Positions 23,647-30,867 of a DNA stretch of 38,473 nt are shown here, piece by piece. A program made the translations under genes and the position numbers. Position 1 is the first letter of the stretch; each line of letters begins with the position of its first letter. The stretch comes from Methanomassiliicoccales archaeon (GTDB lineage Archaea > Thermoplasmatota > Thermoplasmata > Methanomassiliicoccales > UBA472). The notes under the pieces were generated by a model. It saw only the letters and a list, made by a program, of their open reading frames with translations. It had not been told where the DNA came from and searched no databases. The stretch spans positions 1 to 38,473 of the forward strand of contig JAFGPG010000001.1 of NCBI GenBank assembly GCA_016926075.1. The letters are read 5' to 3'.

Positions 23647-24762
23647 TCACTTCATCCTGTGTATGGCGTCGACCACCGCGTCCCCCATCTGCCTGGTGGT
23701 GGCATTGCCGCCCAGGTCCTTGGTGTAGACGCCCTGGTCGAAGGCCCCGCGCACCCCGTCGAAGATGACCTGCCCCAGGTCCCGGCGGCCCAGGTTGTCC
23801 ATCATCATCTTGGCCGCTAGTATGGTGGCCACGGGGTTGATGCGGTTCATGCCCTTGTACTTGGGGGCCGAGCCGTGCACCGGTTCGAACATGGATATGC
23901 CCTGGGGGTTGATGTTCCCGCCCGGGGCCAGACCGAGGCCGCCGGTCACCTCGGCCAGCAGGTCGGTGATGATGTCCCCGAACATGTTCGGCGTTGCCAC
24001 GACCCGGAACCTGTCCGGGTTCTTGACCAGGGCCATGGTCATGGCGTCGACGAACATGAAGCCCAGCTGCTTCCCGGCGCGCCGGCACTTATCGGCCCAT
24101 ACCTCCCGCCATAGGGAGTAGATGTTACTGCAAACGTTGGCCTTGTCCACCACGGTGATGTAGTTCTCGTTGATTAGATCGCAGTATTCGATGACGTGGT
24201 CGGCGAAGCGCTCGATGTTCCTGCGGGACATCATGCCTATCTCGAAGGCGTAGTCGTCCGGCGCATCAGCGTCAACGTCCAGGCGCACCTTCATATCGTA
24301 GAGATGTCGCTTCACCCGAAGGTCCAAGGTGCCCTTGCCCTGGGAGATCCTTCCCCCGACCGCCACGTAATAGTCCTCGGTGTTCTCCCGGAAGACGTCT
24401 ATGTTGAAGTCCACCTCCCTCTTGAGACGACCGAAGGGCTTCCACAGCGGCGCCGGGCGGTGGTTGACGTACTGGTCAAAGGTGAAGCGCAGTGCCAGCA
24501 GGATGCCCTTCTCCAGGATGCCGGGTTTCACGCGGTCGTCCCCGATGGCCCCCAGGAAGATGGTGTCGAACCTCTTCAACTGGCCGATGTCCTCGTCGGT
24601 CAGCAGTTCCCCGGTGCGCAGATAGCGCTCGGAATTGATCTCGAACTCCTGGAAGTCGAACTTGACCGAGTAGTTCTCGGACAGTACGTCCAACACCTTC
24701 ATCGCCTCGGCCACCACCTCCGGGCCTATGCCATCGCCCGGCAGCACCGCTATCTTGTACAT
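23647..24762 (-). CDS. leuB: 3-isopropylmalate dehydrogenase
   Basis: A 371-residue NAD-dependent beta-decarboxylating dehydrogenase. The N-terminus [28 protein letters not shown]-type active-site segment ([17 protein letters not shown]), [12 protein letters not shown] with the metal-binding Asp, [21 protein letters not shown], and [13 protein letters not shown] with the cofactor loop are all present. Isocitrate, homoisocitrate and tartrate dehydrogenases share the fold, but its place last in leuACDB points to leucine synthesis. The ATG lies inside the end of leuD (13-base overlap). An added role in the 2-oxosuberate (coenzyme B) route cannot be excluded in a methanogen. Confidence 0.93.
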
Positions 24763-25244
24763 CTCTTATCCTCCCTGATCTTGGCCATGAGGCCCCCTTT
24801 GTCTATCAGTTCCTGGACGAAGGCCGGGAAGGGTGCGAAGCTCCACTCCCTCCCCTTGGTCTCGTTGATTATCGTCCCCGTGCCGAAGTCCACGGCGAGG
24901 ACGTCGCCGTCCTCCGCCTCTATCTGACACTCCACAGGTAACAGGCCGGTGTTAATGCAGTTCCTATAGAATATCCTTGCGTAGCTCTGGGCGACGACGC
25001 ACGATATGCCCATCTGAAGGAGCGCCCGCGGAGCGTGCTCCCGGCTGGAGCCGCAGCCGAAGTTCCTGCCGGCCACTATGATGTCCCCCTTGCTCACCCT
25101 GGCTGCCATGCCCGGCCTCACCTTCTCGAAGGCGAAGGTCCCCAGACGGTCGTTGTTGTCGCTGGTCAGGCGCTCCGCCGGAATGATCTGATCGGTGTCC
25201 ACATGGTCCCCGAAGGCCCATACCCTTCCCCGTACGTTCCTCAT
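24750..25244 (-). CDS. leuD: 3-isopropylmalate dehydratase, small subunit
   Basis: A 164-residue swivelling subunit of the heterodimeric isopropylmalate isomerase. It shows GDHVDTDQIIPAERL near residues 12-26 and AGRNFGCGSSREHAPRAL near 58-75, the archaeal LeuD signature for substrate binding. It lacks the iron-sulfur cysteines, which are on LeuC. Its ATG overlaps the leuC stop by 4 bases (ATGA), giving equal expression of both subunits. Archaea often keep related pairs (LeuCD and HacAB); the operon with leuA and leuB supports the leucine pair. Confidence 0.94.
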   Translation of the reverse strand: MRNVRGRVWAFGDHVDTDQIIPAERLTSDNNDRLGTFAFEKVRPGMAARVSKGDIIVAGRNFGCGSSREHAPRALLQMGISCVVAQSYARIFYRNCINTGLLPVECQIEAEDGDVLAVDFGTGTIINETKGREWSFAPFPAFVQELIDKGGLMAKIREDKRCTR

Positions 25245-26512
25245 CCCCTCACCTCCAGGTCACGGGGGTCGGTGATCCTGCCGGTGACCGCCGAGGCGGC
25301 CACCACCGCCGGTCCGGCCAGGTACACCTCGGAGTCCCGGTGCCCCATGCGCCCGATGAAGTTGCGGTTGGTGCTGCTGACGCACCTCTCACCGGCGGCC
25401 AGTATGCCCATGTGTCCTCCCAGGCAGGCCCCGCAGGTTGGTCCGGAGATGAACGCTCCGGCGCGGGAGAGCTCGGCCAGCAGCCCTTCTGACAGGGCTT
25501 GCTCGAAGACCTTGGTGGAGGCAGGAACGACGATCATGCGCACCTCCGGGTGTACCTTCCTTCCCCGCAGCACCTCCGTCGCCAGGCGCAGGTCCTCGAT
25601 CCTGCCGTTGGTGCAGGAGCCCAGGTAGGCCTGGTCGATGCTCACGTCCACATCCCTGGCCTTCCTCCCGTTGGATGGCAGATGGGGCAGGGCGACCATG
25701 CTCTCCAGCTGGGAGAGGTCGTACTCCAGGACACGTTCGTAGCTGGCACCCTCGTCGGCATGTACGGGGGTGATGTCGTTCTTGCCCACGGATCTCATGA
25801 AGTCCGCCGTGGCCCCATCGCAGGGGAATATGCCTGCCTTCCCGCCAGCCTCGATGGCCATATTGGAAACGGTCAAGCGGTCAGAGACGGTGAGCTCGGC
25901 CACCCCGCTGCCCGCGAACTCCAGGGCCCTGTAGTTGGCCCCGTCCACACCGATGTCGCTGATGAGCTTGAGCACCAGGTCCTTGCCCCCCACGTACCTC
26001 GAGAGGCGACCCTTGAGCATCACGCGTATGGAGGCTGGCACTTTGAACCATAGGCGGCCGGTGGCGAACACCGCCGCCGCCTCGGAGCTGCCTACCCCGG
26101 TGGAGAAGGCGTTGATCCCGCCGTAGGTGCAGGTGTGGGAATCGGCGCCCACCACCAGGGCACCGGGGTAGGCGAAGCCCTCCTCCAGCATGACCTGGTG
26201 GCATACGCCTCCCCTGCCCACCTCGAAGTAGTTGACTATGCCCCAGCGTTTGGCGAACTCCCTCATCTCCTTGGCCTGCTGGGCGGAGGCCACGTCCTTG
26301 TTAGGGACGAAATGGTCGGGGATGAGCACGATGCGCTCCCGTACCGGCTCGCATCCCAGTGCCTCGAACTCCTGGAAGGCCAGAGGGCCGGTCACGTCGT
26401 TGACCATGACATGGTCCACCTCCGCCTCCACGATGTCCCCGGCCCTGGCGTCCTGTCCGGATTTCAGCGATAGAATCTTCTCCGATATGGTCTTGGGATG
26501 GTCTGGCGTCAT
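25241..26512 (-). CDS. leuC: 3-isopropylmalate dehydratase, large subunit
   Basis: A 423-residue aconitase-superfamily subunit carrying the 4Fe-4S cluster. Cluster cysteines are seen in YLGSCTNGRIEDL and SGPTCGACLGGHMG (the CxxC pair). VVGADSHTCTYGGINAFSTGVGSSE marks the active site, and DHVMVNDVTGPLAF is an early family segment. ATG 26512 has AAGGT 6 bases upstream and starts 11 bases after leuA ends. It forms the isomerase with the next gene, leuD. The length is that of the archaeal-type LeuC. Confidence 0.94.
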   Translation of the reverse strand: MTPDHPKTISEKILSLKSGQDARAGDIVEAEVDHVMVNDVTGPLAFQEFEALGCEPVRERIVLIPDHFVPNKDVASAQQAKEMREFAKRWGIVNYFEVGRGGVCHQVMLEEGFAYPGALVVGADSHTCTYGGINAFSTGVGSSEAAAVFATGRLWFKVPASIRVMLKGRLSRYVGGKDLVLKLISDIGVDGANYRALEFAGSGVAELTVSDRLTVSNMAIEAGGKAGIFPCDGATADFMRSVGKNDITPVHADEGASYERVLEYDLSQLESMVALPHLPSNGRKARDVDVSIDQAYLGSCTNGRIEDLRLATEVLRGRKVHPEVRMIVVPASTKVFEQALSEGLLAELSRAGAFISGPTCGACLGGHMGILAAGERCVSSTNRNFIGRMGHRDSEVYLAGPAVVAASAVTGRITDPRDLEVRG

Positions 26513-26523
26513 GTACTACCTTC

Positions 26524-28128
26524 CTAGATCTTGTGTTTGGACAGCAGGCGGTCGATGGCCTCCATGGCCGCGTCCACGCTGGTGAGCACGATGTCCGTGC
26601 CGATGCCTTTGCCCACCGACATGACCTTCTGGTCACCGTTCATCCTCAGCTTGACGGTCACCTCGCACAGGGCATCGCTCCCCCCGGTGATGGCGTTGAG
26701 ACGGTATTCCACCAGGGTGATGTTCTCGCTGACCGCGGAGCGTATGGCGTTGAGGGCGGCGTCCACCGGCCCTATTCCCACGTTCGAGGAGCGGGCCAGC
26801 TTCCCGTCCACGTCCACCACCACCGTGGAGGTGGGGGTGATGTTCATGCCGGTGAAGACGGTGAACTCCTTCAGCTCCACGTGGCGCCTCCGTTTCTCCA
26901 CCTGTCCGGCGATGTGCGAGGCCAGGGCCACCAGCTCGGCGTCGTCCACCTCCTTCCCGCTCTCCGCCAGCCGTTTCACCTTCTCTACCACGTCCTCAAG
27001 CTGATGCTCCGGTAGGGTGATGTCATACTCACTCAGCTTCTCCTTGACCGAGTGAGCCCCGGTGTGCTTTCCCATGACGATGTTGCGCTGCATGCCCACC
27101 AGCTCGGGGCTGAAGGCCTCGTAGGTCGAGGGGTCCCTCAGTACCCCGTGCACGTGTATGCCGGACTCGTGGGCGAAGGCGTTGTTGCCCACGATGGCCT
27201 TGTTCTCGGGCACCGGGATGCTTGTCAGACGGGCCACGGTCTTGGAGGTCGTTCCCAGCTTGCGGGTGTCCACGTTCGTGCGCACGTCCAGGAAGGCCAG
27301 TAGCCCCATGACCACCTCCTCAAGGGCGGCATTCCCTGCCCTTTCGCCCAGACCGTTCATGCACACGTGCACCTGTCGCGCCCCCTTGCGAACCGCGGAG
27401 AGGGAGTTGGCGGTGGCCATCCCGAAATCGTCATGGCAATGTATGGACAGAGGGACCTTGGTGACCTGCATGACCTCGGAGACCAGATACTCCATGGCCG
27501 CCGGGGACATGGTGCCCACCGTGTCAGGGAGGTTGATCTTGTGCGCTCCGGCCTCCTGCACAGCCATGTGCATCTCCTTGAGGAAGTCCAGTTCGGTGCG
27601 GGTGCCGTCCTCGCAGGAGAACTCCACGGTGACACCGCGGGAACGGGCGTACTCCACGGCATCCACCGCCTTGGCCTTGACCTCCTCCCTGGTCATCTTG
27701 AGCTTGTGCCTCATGTGCCCCTCGGAGGTGGCGATGAAGGTGTGCACATAGTCCACGCCGTTGTCCACCGCGGAGTCGATGTCCTGCCTCGAGCAGCGGG
27801 CCAGTCCGCACACCTTGGCCTTCAGCCCCAGGGAGCTGATCTTGCGTATGGCCTCCTGCTCGCCTTGTGAGGTGCGGGGGAACCCCGCCTCTATGATGTC
27901 GACCCCCAGCTCGTCCAGCAGCTGGGCTATGCGGACCTTGTCGTCCATGGACAGGGCCACACCAGGGGTCTGCTCGCCGTCCCTCAGCGTCGTGTCGAAG
28001 ATCTCCACCGAGGAGGGGGTGGACAAGTCCCGGGCACAGCTATTGAAATGACTGGTGAATATGCTGTTTCCCTGTTGCCCGCCACGGGCTCTATAGTCCT
28101 GACTGCTCGACGATCGAAGTTCGGTCAC
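26524..28128 (-). CDS. leuA: 2-isopropylmalate synthase (LeuA/CimA/AksA family)
   Basis: A 534-residue enzyme joining 2-oxoisovalerate and acetyl-CoA. The catalytic TIM barrel starts at EIFDTTLRDGEQTPGVALS (about residue 42) and includes the HCHDDFGMATANSLSA metal-binding stretch, HVCMNGLGERAGNA and AHESGIHVHGVL. The C-terminal region from about 390 (VFTGMNITPTSTVVVDVDGK) is the LeuA regulatory domain, which normally binds leucine. GTG 28128 is chosen because GAGGTG lies 6 bases before it; the GTG at 28137 is too close to that site. The first ~40 residues are an unusual Ser/Arg/Gln-rich extension. It is first of leuACDB and preceded by a ~110-base leader. Citramalate or homocitrate synthases are alternatives, less likely in this operon. 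Confidence 0.93.
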   Translation of the reverse strand: MTELRSSSSQDYRARGGQQGNSIFTSHFNSCARDLSTPSSVEIFDTTLRDGEQTPGVALSMDDKVRIAQLLDELGVDIIEAGFPRTSQGEQEAIRKISSLGLKAKVCGLARCSRQDIDSAVDNGVDYVHTFIATSEGHMRHKLKMTREEVKAKAVDAVEYARSRGVTVEFSCEDGTRTELDFLKEMHMAVQEAGAHKINLPDTVGTMSPAAMEYLVSEVMQVTKVPLSIHCHDDFGMATANSLSAVRKGARQVHVCMNGLGERAGNAALEEVVMGLLAFLDVRTNVDTRKLGTTSKTVARLTSIPVPENKAIVGNNAFAHESGIHVHGVLRDPSTYEAFSPELVGMQRNIVMGKHTGAHSVKEKLSEYDITLPEHQLEDVVEKVKRLAESGKEVDDAELVALASHIAGQVEKRRRHVELKEFTVFTGMNITPTSTVVVDVDGKLARSSNVGIGPVDAALNAIRSAVSENITLVEYRLNAITGGSDALCEVTVKLRMNGDQKVMSVGKGIGTDIVLTSVDAAMEAIDRLLSKHKI

Positions 28129-28157
28129 GATAACCACCTCTCACATCCAAGGTCGCG

Positions 28158-28180
28158 GCGATGAGCTGGTTCAAGCTCGC
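28158..28180 (-). other. Hairpin in the leuA leader
   Basis: On the minus strand GCGAGCT and AGCTC(AT)CGC enclose a 6-base loop that holds the leader-ORF stop codon. Its downstream arm (GCTCATCG, 28159-28166) can instead pair fully with CGATGAGC at 28210-28217. No T-tract follows, so it is not an ordinary terminator. Confidence 0.5.
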
Positions 28181-28215
28181 AAAAGACCGTGTCCAACCAC
28201 GATATCTGTGCTCAT
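28171..28215 (-). CDS. Putative leader peptide of the leucine operon
   Basis: A 14-codon reading frame, MSTDIVVGHGLLRA, between the leu TATA box and leuA. GAGGT ends 6 bases before its ATG, as good a ribosome site as those of the main genes, and the predicted transcript start (near 28236) is about 20 bases upstream. Five of 14 residues are Ile, Val or Leu, the products of the pathway. An extra in-frame ATG at 28221 would add two residues. Its stop lies in the loop of a hairpin. Translation-linked control of leuACDB is suggested. It is short enough to arise by chance, so confidence is moderate. Confidence 0.5.
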   Translation of the reverse strand: MSTDIVVGHGLLRA

Positions 28216-28256
28216 CGTCATACCTCGTATGTACGGCTGATGAACAGGAAACGGGG

Positions 28257-28265
28257 TATATAAAA
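28257..28265 (-). promoter_or_regulatory. TATA box of leuACDB
   Basis: TTTTATATA on the minus strand is a strong TATA element just after the end of queE. It predicts transcription from about 28236, giving leuA a leader of about 108 bases. Confidence 0.65.
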
Positions 28266-28288
28266 TCATTGCTAGGGCCTGACCGACC

Positions 28289-28918
28289 TCAGACCCCCTG
28301 ACGGTCCCCCCATATGAGCTTGTGCAGTTGAGGGAGCACCCTTACCTCCAGCTTCCTGGAGAGGACGAAGGAGACCGCGGGCTCAAGGGAGAGCCCGCCC
28401 AAGGGCGTGAAGATGACCGGGCAGCGGGGGGGATGTGCCCTCAGGACCTGCTCGGCCCTCTCCAAATCCTCCATGTCGGCGACCACGAACTTGAGCTGGT
28501 CCTTCGGTCCGAGCAGTTCCAGGTTCCTGAGCAGCATGCGACCCTCCTCCCCGGAGGAAGGGCACTTGTAATCCATGCTGATCAGGAGCTCGGGATGATC
28601 GGGCAAAACGTCCAGGGGCAGGGAGCCGTTGGTCTCCAGCGTCACGTGGCGTCCATCCTCCAGCAGTGCGGACAGGAGGTGGACCGAATCGGGCTGGCAC
28701 AGAGGCTCGCCTCCCGTGAGGCAGACATGCCGCACCGCCATGGAGCGTACCAGGTCCAGCACCTTGGCCACCGACATCTCCTCGCCTCCCTCCCGGGCCT
28801 GTCTGGTGTCGCACCAGCGACAGTCCAGGTTGCATCCGGACAGACGCACGAACGCCGTGGGCAGCCCCATGGTCCGACCCTCTCCTTGGATGGAGAGGAA
28901 GGCCTCGTGCACGAGCAT
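28289..28918 (-). CDS. queE: 7-carboxy-7-deazaguanine synthase
   Basis: A 209-residue radical SAM enzyme that contracts the ring of 6-carboxytetrahydropterin to 7-carboxy-7-deazaguanine. The N-terminus SIQGEGRTMGLPTAFVRLSG leads into CNLDCRWCDT, whose three cysteines hold the 4Fe-4S cluster (C-x3-C-x2-C). TGGEP (about 69-73) and ETNGS (about 95-99) are the usual SAM-binding positions. The C-terminus ends LPQLHKLIWG, as in the family. Its ATG follows the queC stop by one base. It is last of queDCE, which makes preQ0 for archaeosine in tRNA. Confidence 0.95.
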   Translation of the reverse strand: MLVHEAFLSIQGEGRTMGLPTAFVRLSGCNLDCRWCDTRQAREGGEEMSVAKVLDLVRSMAVRHVCLTGGEPLCQPDSVHLLSALLEDGRHVTLETNGSLPLDVLPDHPELLISMDYKCPSSGEEGRMLLRNLELLGPKDQLKFVVADMEDLERAEQVLRAHPPRCPVIFTPLGGLSLEPAVSFVLSRKLEVRVLPQLHKLIWGDRQGV

Positions 28919-28919
28919 C

Positions 28920-29588
28920 TCATTCCTCGTAGGGCACAGGGTCTATCAATCCCGCTTCCTTGAACCCTTTCAAGCGAAGCAAGCAGGAGTCGCAGTGCCC
29001 GCAGGCCCTCTCCCCTCCCCGGTAGCAGCTCCAGGTGAGCTCGAACGGAACGTCCATTATCTTGCCCATCTTCACTATGTCCCCCTTGGTCTTGCGCAGG
29101 AGAGGATGTTCCACCCGTATGGGATGCCCCAGGGTGCCCATCTTGGTCCCCACCCTCAGCATCTCCTCGAAGGCCTGGAAGAACTCGGGGCGGCAGTCCG
29201 GGTACCCGCTGTAATCGATGGAGTTGGCACCGATGAACACATTGCTGGCCCCCAGGCTCTCGGCCAATCCGGTCGCTACGCTCAGGAAGATGATGTTGCG
29301 CGCCGGGACATAGGTGTCCGGGATGTCGTACCCGATGTCCTCGACCTTGCGGTCCGGGAGGGGAATGGAAGGGTCGATCAGAGAACTACGGAACTCGGTC
29401 AGGGGCAGCTTCATGACCACGTGCCGGACCCGGTAATGACTGGTCACCGCCTTGGCCGCTTCCAGTTCCCGCTGGTGCCTTTGCCCGTAATCGATGGTCA
29501 GGGCGGTCACCTCATGCCCCTTGCACAGGGCATAGGCCAGGGTCACGGTGGAGTCCAGTCCGCCGGAGAGCAGGCAAATGGCCTTCAT
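28920..29588 (-). CDS. queC: 7-cyano-7-deazaguanine (preQ0) synthase
   Basis: A 222-residue ATP-dependent enzyme converting 7-carboxy-7-deazaguanine with ammonia to preQ0. The PP-loop LLSGGLDSTVTL is at residues 6-17; YVPARNIIFLSVA and GANSIDYSGYPDCRPEF follow; the zinc site is made of Cys residues in SCYRGGERACGHCDSCLLR near residues 188-206. Its ATG overlaps the queD stop by 4 bases (ATGA). In archaea preQ0 goes to archaeosine at position 15 of tRNAs; the transglycosylase is not in this window. Confidence 0.96.
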   Translation of the reverse strand: MKAICLLSGGLDSTVTLAYALCKGHEVTALTIDYGQRHQRELEAAKAVTSHYRVRHVVMKLPLTEFRSSLIDPSIPLPDRKVEDIGYDIPDTYVPARNIIFLSVATGLAESLGASNVFIGANSIDYSGYPDCRPEFFQAFEEMLRVGTKMGTLGHPIRVEHPLLRKTKGDIVKMGKIMDVPFELTWSCYRGGERACGHCDSCLLRLKGFKEAGLIDPVPYEE

Positions 29589-30067
29589 CTCTTCCCTCCC
29601 AATTTCTTGCTGGCCCAGGCGCTCTGGCCCAGTTCCTCGTGCACCCCCACCTCCACCTCCTTGACGTTGGGAGGGAACTCCATGACGTCAAGTAGCTTGT
29701 CGAGTATGACCTTGCACAGCTCCTCCGCGCTGCTCTCCTCGGTGGGCAGCAGCACCACGTCCTCCTTGGGCAATGCGTATTTCTTGCCGTCGGACTTGAT
29801 GAAGACCTCATCCCCCATGGCCACGATGATCTTCTTGGAGTTGGCGGGGACCAACACCCGATGGTCGAGCCCATCGGCGATGGCCCTCAGCTCCTTTTTC
29901 AGGGGGACGAAGTCCATGACCATACCGTCCTTGCCCACCTCGCCCTGCAGCCTGAGACTGACCACATAGGTATGTCCGTGCAGCCTTCCGCACTTATGGT
30001 GCCCAGCTATGAAGTGGCAGGCGGAAAATCTGATATCGGTGTATTTGCCATCAATCTCCAGTCTCAT
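29585..30067 (-). CDS. queD: 6-carboxytetrahydropterin synthase
   Basis: A 160-residue member of the PTPS/QueD family, the first committed step of preQ0 synthesis from dihydroneopterin triphosphate. Zinc ligands are seen in FSACHF and RLHGHTY, and the catalytic Cys in HHKCGRLHGH (about residues 24-33). A lysine/charged insert (SKKIIVAMGDEVFIKSDGKK) lies between the two halves, a feature of longer archaeal members. ATG 30067 is chosen because GGGGAGGGG precedes it; upstream codons in the same frame overlap mtxX. It starts queDCE, 47 bases after mtxX, so it may be read from the mtxX promoter. Confidence 0.93.
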   Translation of the reverse strand: MRLEIDGKYTDIRFSACHFIAGHHKCGRLHGHTYVVSLRLQGEVGKDGMVMDFVPLKKELRAIADGLDHRVLVPANSKKIIVAMGDEVFIKSDGKKYALPKEDVVLLPTEESSAEELCKVILDKLLDVMEFPPNVKEVEVGVHEELGQSAWASKKLGGKR

Positions 30068-30114
30068 CTCAATGCCCCTCCCCATATTGTACGTGATACT
30101 CGATAATCGTTTTC

Positions 30115-30867
30115 CTAGCCCGAGAGTGCGGAGGCCAGGGCTATGGAGTCCACATAGCACTTCTTGGCCCGGGAGGTGTCCACGAAGACCCGTTCCAGGT
30201 TCAGTATGGGAGCGCCCATGGACACGCATCCGTCCACGAGGTGCATGGTGCGGAATATGAGGTTGCCAGTGATGCCATCGGGGGCCAGGATGAGGTTCTT
30301 CCTGCGCACTGCCTCCTCTATGAGTATCTGGCAATGTTGGACGGAATATCCCTCCCTCCTACCTCGTTCCTCCAGCTCCATGGCGTCCCTGATGGTGCGG
30401 TCCACTATCGCGTTCCTTCCCATATCCCCCAGGCGGCCTCCGGAAAGCACTCCTACCTCCATCCTCAGGTCTAAGGAGGAGAACAACCGGGAAGAGAGCC
30501 GTATGAACTCCATCTTGTCCTCGACCTCCCACCCCTCGTCCACGCCCACGGGGGCCAGGAAGAACATGCGGCCCCCCTTGGGCTGCATGAGGGCCGCCCG
30601 TAGCAGATGGTCCAGGGAGAACTGCCCTTTGATAGCGGCCATGGTGCTGTTGGCGCTCAGGTCGCCCCTTACCGCAGCGTCTATGCTTCCCGAGGCCAGA
30701 GCGGAGACCATCTCCTCCGGGGACCTGAAGGTGGACACCTTCGCGTAACCTCTGCCCTCAGCGGAACGGGCGTTGCTCCTGACCTTGCCAGTATTCTCCC
30801 CCAGTCCTATGCCCACCCGGGCCTGGTTCTCCCTTGCTCTCTTGAATATCTGCTCGGGGGTAAGCAT
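30115..30867 (-). CDS. mtxX: Methanogenesis marker protein 4 (MtxX)
   Basis: A 250-residue protein matching the methanogenesis marker 4 family, related to phosphate acetyl/butyryltransferases and originally named as a putative methyltransferase subunit. Seen: MLTPEQIFKRARENQARVGIGLG at the N-terminus, SGSIDAAVRGDLSA (residues 62-75), SLDHLLRAALM, FFLAPVGVDEGW, LSGGRLGDMGRN and ILAPDGITGNLIFRTMHLVDG with GAPILNL. No biochemical role is established. ATG 30867 is chosen because a TATA box at 30892-30900 predicts a leaderless start there. Its presence is the clearest sign of a methanogen in this window. Confidence 0.88.
   Translation of the reverse strand: MLTPEQIFKRARENQARVGIGLGENTGKVRSNARSAEGRGYAKVSTFRSPEEMVSALASGSIDAAVRGDLSANSTMAAIKGQFSLDHLLRAALMQPKGGRMFFLAPVGVDEGWEVEDKMEFIRLSSRLFSSLDLRMEVGVLSGGRLGDMGRNAIVDRTIRDAMELEERGRREGYSVQHCQILIEEAVRRKNLILAPDGITGNLIFRTMHLVDGCVSMGAPILNLERVFVDTSRAKKCYVDSIALASALSG

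Follow-up and report, generated by a model that had tools for sequence, protein, structure and literature searches.

A conserved leucine-codon leader ORF within an RNA hairpin upstream of leuACDB as a candidate ribosome-mediated attenuator in Methanomassiliicoccales archaea

The leader of the leuACDB operon in a Methanomassiliicoccales archaeon carries a 14-codon micro-ORF (28215-28171, minus strand; coordinates refer to the window, i.e., the whole 38,473-nucleotide stretch of DNA analysed), which comparison with the leuA leaders of related genomes indicates is real and not a chance reading frame. The ORF, its Leu run, the position of that run, and an RNA hairpin in which the ORF lies, the last a feature beyond those given in a preliminary description of the locus, are all conserved when leaders are compared. 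We consider it probable that the ORF is translated into a leader peptide whose Leu codons sense charged leucyl-tRNA and thereby set the expression of leuACDB, most likely at the initiation of leuA translation.

The leuACDB leader

Downstream of the leader, the gene order is leuA-leuC-leuD-leuB by NCBIfam matches, all on the minus strand. The genes leuA (2-isopropylmalate synthase, 26524-28128; NF002085, 657 bits at a cut-off of 517), leuC (25241-26512; NF001614), and leuD (24750-25244; TIGR02087) scored above cut-off, and leuB (3-isopropylmalate dehydrogenase family, 23647-24762) retrieved PRK03437 as its best match, below the equivalog cut-off. In the window leuA begins with GTG at 28128, preceded by the Shine-Dalgarno sequence AGAGGTGG (28134-28141), and five congeners have ATG at the equivalent site, which supports this start call. 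The genes that precede the leader on this strand (28289-30334) resemble a 7-deazaguanine (queuosine/archaeosine precursor) set, in which queE was matched by NCBIfam below cut-offs and its neighbours were judged by eye.

An archaeal BRE/TATA promoter, AGCAATGATTTTATATA (28256-28273, minus strand), with the TATA box TTTTATATA at about 28264-28256, is found here and also upstream of leuA in congeners. When the window was searched with AGCAAYGATTATATAA allowing up to three mismatches, the promoter site was the sole match. Placed from the TATA box, the transcript would start near 28233-28237. The micro-ORF that follows, MSTDIVVGHGLLRA, reads ATG AGC ACA GAT ATC GTG GTT GGA CAC GGT CTT TTG CGA GCT TGA, and its proposed regulatory Leu codons are CTT-TTG (codons 11-12; 28180-28185), which are invariant in the 10 congeners. 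The sequence statements of the preliminary description were borne out throughout: the ORF at 28215-28171, a GAGGT six bases 5' of its ATG, the TATA box, and the 87 nt separating the uORF ATG from leuA. An in-frame ATG lies two codons further upstream (28221) and is absent in L005, L007, and L010, while position 28215 is ATG in nine of the 10 congeners and GTG in the tenth.

Conservation of the micro-ORF and its leucine codons

We collected the regions upstream of leuA in all ten genus members and in about sixty further genomes, giving 72 scored leaders under 27 genus labels, one of them a Thermoplasmata leader from outside the order (L042). A uORF was counted if it had 10-25 codons, lay 70-125 nt upstream of leuA, and contained a Leu-containing run near the ORF end. 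By these criteria, a uORF is present in 67/72 leaders and under 24/27 genus labels, compared with 8.0% of dinucleotide-shuffled leaders and 10 of the 205 control gene upstream regions (5%), which excludes the chance origin that had been allowed for on account of the ORF's shortness. Because the criteria were fixed after the pattern had been seen, the binomial figure for genera of about 1e-23 is only indicative. No uORF was found by these criteria in g24, g27, and one g13 genome, and in g20 the run is weaker (FLREY). The family f2 leuA leaders with no recognisable Leu uORF are L066 and L067 (g24), L088 (g27), and L086 (G042).

Within the genus, the uORF is always 14 codons long, in frame and with no indel in 10/10 genomes; it starts with ATG (9) or GTG (1) and stops with TAA (8), TGA, or TAG, start codons being replaced solely by alternative start codons and stop codons by alternative stops. 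Neither the loss of the ORF in relatives nor the frameshifts between close relatives that had been named as evidence against it were therefore seen in the genus. The window's copy differs from the commonest genus form, MSIIIVDGHGLLRA, in the middle of the peptide and has the same leucines. In other genera, Leu-rich-ended uORFs stand almost equally far from leuA (MRHTSIISLLLLLH, MNDWRPDLLLLLRLVPVSSL, MCVIATKLALILRKY, and MVSNGLHRTLILRLL), and family f2 uORFs likewise have a leucine-rich end (MIFAQHIGLLLIE, MICNAFIGLLLLLE, and MIFKPTTGLILLK). Beyond the scored set, and outside the 67/72 statistics, leuA-like genes of the Thermoplasmata family f9 (L169-L171 and L173-L180) have Leu-rich uORFs, MNSITFIRQLYFLLLE and similar, several of which lie in a hairpin GATAATGTTTA/TAAACGTTATC whose arms change together, reading GATAATATTTAC/GTAAATATTATC in another species. 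Two phylum-level relatives (L091 and L092), also outside the statistics and judged by eye, have leuA uORFs in which Leu/Ile/Val residues abound (MKGEILMEGNLFPSLLGIVIAFILIL and MKNVELATRIGCESLLVLGLVVLVSLISH).

The preliminary description had pointed to Ile, Val, and Leu codons as end products of the pathway, and this holds for Leu near the ORF end, which is kept across the order and is the only amino acid so conserved. The Ile/Val codons in the middle of the ORF are not kept outside the genus, and we have rejected them as part of the leuA signal. In the genus, Leu is encoded only by CTT and TTG, with two Leu codons per uORF; in the window, CTT makes up 7.7% and TTG 11.7% of Leu codon usage, and CTG and CTC together 75%. 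Leaders being AT-richer than genes may account for part of this bias towards rare codons. The Leu run of f2 uses all of CTT, CTA, CTC, CTG, TTA, and TTG, yet at the run's final two codons the second base does not vary, and the internal gaps of the f2 ORF alignment come in threes. Lengths of the uORF run from 39 to 63 nt in steps of three, as for any ORF, and the spacer from its stop to leuA takes many lengths, which do not differ by multiples of 3.

In 33 non-f2 leaders, the main run has its last Leu 53.6 +/- 3.8 nt 5' of leuA, a figure that leaves out genera g4-6, which have longer spacers, and in which L021 is an outlier where the automatic choice took an earlier run; in f2 the distance is 44 +/- 3 nt. 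Over the same non-f2 leaders, the uORF stop shifts from -42 to -22 relative to leuA while the Leu position stays nearly fixed. This bears on a simpler reading in which ribosomes terminating on the uORF reinitiate at, or are otherwise coupled to, leuA, the Leu codons acting as rare-codon speed bumps and not as leucine sensors. A uORF stop 22-69 nt 5' of leuA in all leaders and a structured region near the leuA start would both suit such coupling, but it leaves the nearly fixed Leu position unexplained, as well as the match of the conserved residues to the pathway product, with Val/Ile/Leu instead in the leaders of ilvB described below, and we regard it as quite unlikely.

Outside the Leu run, genera differ greatly in the peptide sequence. 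A Leu-Arg at the run end is kept in most non-f2 leaders, as might be expected if the nascent peptide itself, together with free leucine or another signal, arrested the ribosome in the manner of TnaC and tryptophan. The Arg is absent from most f2 leaders, however, and known arrest peptides do not vary in this way, so that we give such arrest hardly any credence.

The leader hairpin and the level of control

Folded singly, the window's leader has no extra stability over shuffles (z = -0.54; mean z of -1.86 over 25 leaders), and we therefore tested the hairpin comparatively, which is where its support comes from. In an arm-swap test with one leader per genus, we computed the duplex energy between the 5' arm (the uORF start region) and the 3' arm (the region between the Leu codons and leuA). 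Own arms averaged -25.5 kcal/mol vs -18.9 kcal/mol for swapped arms (z = -8.0, 24 genera), and f2 alone gave z = -2.3 over eight genera. The RNAalifold consensus of the 10 congeners pairs 28233-28230 with 28145-28142, 28227-28222 with 28153-28148, and 28217-28210 with 28166-28159, so that the Leu codons fall in the apical part. The 5' arm of the lower helix, UACA..CGAGGU (28222-28233), overlaps the uORF's own Shine-Dalgarno GAGG (28226-28223), and its 3' arm, ACCUUG..UGUG (28142-28153), lies directly 5' of the leuA Shine-Dalgarno. The upper helix joins the start-codon strand CGAUGAGC (28210-28217) to GCUCAUCG (28159-28166), a UCAUYGCU element kept irrespective of reading frame. One of the 28 pairs, in the lower helix, shows a compensatory change within the genus (A-U/G-C). 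For f2, RNAalifold returned a basal stem only, of six pairs (ACCGUC/GACGGU), with changes on both sides at three of the six. The well-supported helices adjoin the leuA Shine-Dalgarno without covering it, and outer pairs that would cover it need bases upstream of the inferred transcript start. Of the two mutually exclusive structures expected of a ribosome-mediated attenuator, this one hairpin is supported, and an alternative pairing, of the 28163-28161 region with GAUGUGAG before leuA, was seen by eye only.

From this arrangement, a mechanism can be proposed. Once the leader is transcribed, a ribosome would load on the uORF before the remaining leader is made. With leucine plentiful, it would complete the 14 codons and leave, 28233-28210 would pair with 28166-28142, and the closed hairpin, abutting the leuA Shine-Dalgarno, would lower leuA translation. 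With leucine short, the ribosome would wait at the rare CTT-TTG, where its predicted footprint (about 28200-28165) would block hairpin closure and allow leuA to be translated.

Control could instead be exerted on transcription, with a stalled or absent ribosome deciding whether RNA polymerase terminates in the leader, at a U-run or with the help of a factor. The same uORF evidence applies to this reading, and a run of five T is present in 12/26 f2 leaders, just 5' of the leuA start in the examples listed. The window's leader, in contrast, contains no terminator-like site (hairpin and U tract) of the kind a classical transcriptional attenuator has, and no T run of five occurs in the leaders of the genus or of other f1 genera. 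We therefore favour control at translation initiation over a bacterial-type terminator, and hold transcription-level control to be unlikely. The bacterial-type leu/ilv leader-peptide layout that had been suggested for this locus is accordingly supported in its conserved uORF and Leu run, but not as regards an intrinsic terminator.

Another reading is that the ORF is incidental and that the conserved CUUUUGCG and UCAUYGCU are recognised by a regulator that binds RNA or DNA, or by a riboswitch. Both vary hardly at all within the genus, UCAUYGCU is retained in whichever frame it falls, and the promoter carries AGCAATGA, nearly the reverse complement of UCAUYGCU. In f2, though, the letters differ and yet the Leu-run uORF persists, and pairing with the start-codon region explains UCAUYGCU. 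Rfam models gave no riboswitch or T-box family match, retrieving from the window only tRNAs elsewhere and one chance-level SmY match on the other strand. We find this reading very improbable. A search of the window's own genome for the pattern CTTTTGCG-N{3,12}-TCAYCGC gave no match and is uninformative, since the true spacing is 13.

The resemblance between the promoter and the leader is an observation in its own right: AGCAATGA (28266-28273) and the leader's TCATYGCT (28159-28166) are near reverse complements, and the corresponding pair reads AGCAATGG/CCATTGCT in L013 and L023 and ACAATGA/TCATTGT in L017. It is conceivable that the two form a DNA operator, although RNA pairing explains the leader copy and f2 promoters, by eye, are without AGCAATGA.

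Leaders of other genes and known systems

For ilvB (acetolactate synthase), which belongs to a second branched-chain operon, we counted the 24 loci of families f1, f3, f5, and f6 not cut by a contig end, and 23 have a uORF with a terminal Val/Ile/Leu run that reaches the stop or ends no more than two codons short of it. A strong hairpin usually lies directly 3' of that stop (L190-L213). The window's own genome has such a leader, with the GTG-started uORF SNDNMGEMISMLLPVLTAVVVL (L211, G000:C62, about 3258-3187, minus strand). The ilvB uORF is absent in five f2 loci, and the leaders sampled as negative controls, those of hisG, ilvC, and leuA paralogues, yielded no conserved uORF. Leaders of trpE are short, and many have a TGTACA-type repeat; in L227-L248, TGTACA/TGTATA-type inverted repeats surround the TATA box and are repressor-operator-like. 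Three other trpE leaders (L220, L223, and L224) have a possible uORF with one Trp codon and a common RD(L/F)LW motif (MKQKRDFLWKQKKEI, MKRSRDLLWKLGNEFQ, and MRDLLWLPGRS).

On balance, these comparisons incline us to the view that in Thermoplasmatota archaea branched-chain synthesis is under ribosome-mediated attenuation, in which the leader peptides are matched to the pathway, with Leu codons ahead of leuA and Val/Ile/Leu codons ahead of ilvB, and control falls on translation initiation via a hairpin formed from the ORF's own start region. This would be the first archaeal example of such control. The layout had been put forward as not commonly described in archaea, and the open papers searched, a set outside of which fall most subscription papers and all preprints, hold no archaeal precedent for leader-peptide attenuation; given this coverage, priority is not claimed. 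If the proposal is true, archaea too read aminoacyl-tRNA supply via the translating ribosome, archaeal transcription-translation coupling and uORF function become testable at a defined site, and leucine, valine, or isoleucine is predicted to elicit a response from the leaders.

In bacteria, leader-peptide attenuation is a textbook mechanism, exemplified by leuL and ilvL, the attenuators of the Escherichia coli leu and ilv operons. As in ribosome-mediated attenuators generally, a short ORF with its own ribosome-binding site lies upstream of a biosynthetic operon here, codons for the pathway product stand at the control position (Leu before leuA; Val/Ile/Leu before ilvB), and the arm-swap test and consensus folds support a conserved RNA structure overlapping the ORF. 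Like the bacterial leu/ilv attenuators, which serve the same pathways, the present leader has a short uORF that contains end-product codons and precedes the first biosynthetic gene. It differs in its archaeal host and promoter, in that no terminator hairpin with a U tract was found, and in a hairpin that pairs the uORF start region with sequence lying 5' of the structural gene's Shine-Dalgarno. Translational attenuators, such as that of ermC, are similar in that a ribosome stalled in the leader ORF would free a downstream ribosome-binding site. Here, however, the signal would be leucyl-tRNA supply and not an antibiotic, and the comparative support covers one hairpin and not a set of alternative hairpins.

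Bacterial leader-peptide attenuators also include that of Corynebacterium glutamicum ilvBNC (PMC11857589). Of described systems, the nearest is an actinobacterial one, the LEU element upstream of leuA, whose Leu codons base-pair with the Shine-Dalgarno and which is predicted to contain a pseudoknot (PMC1262725); leader peptide mutants of Streptomyces leuA, as cited in that paper, did not fit classical attenuation. The present leader differs from the LEU element in its pairing partners: the consensus fold does not pair the Leu run with the leuA Shine-Dalgarno, and instead places the Leu codons in the apical part, with the start-codon region as the pairing arm.
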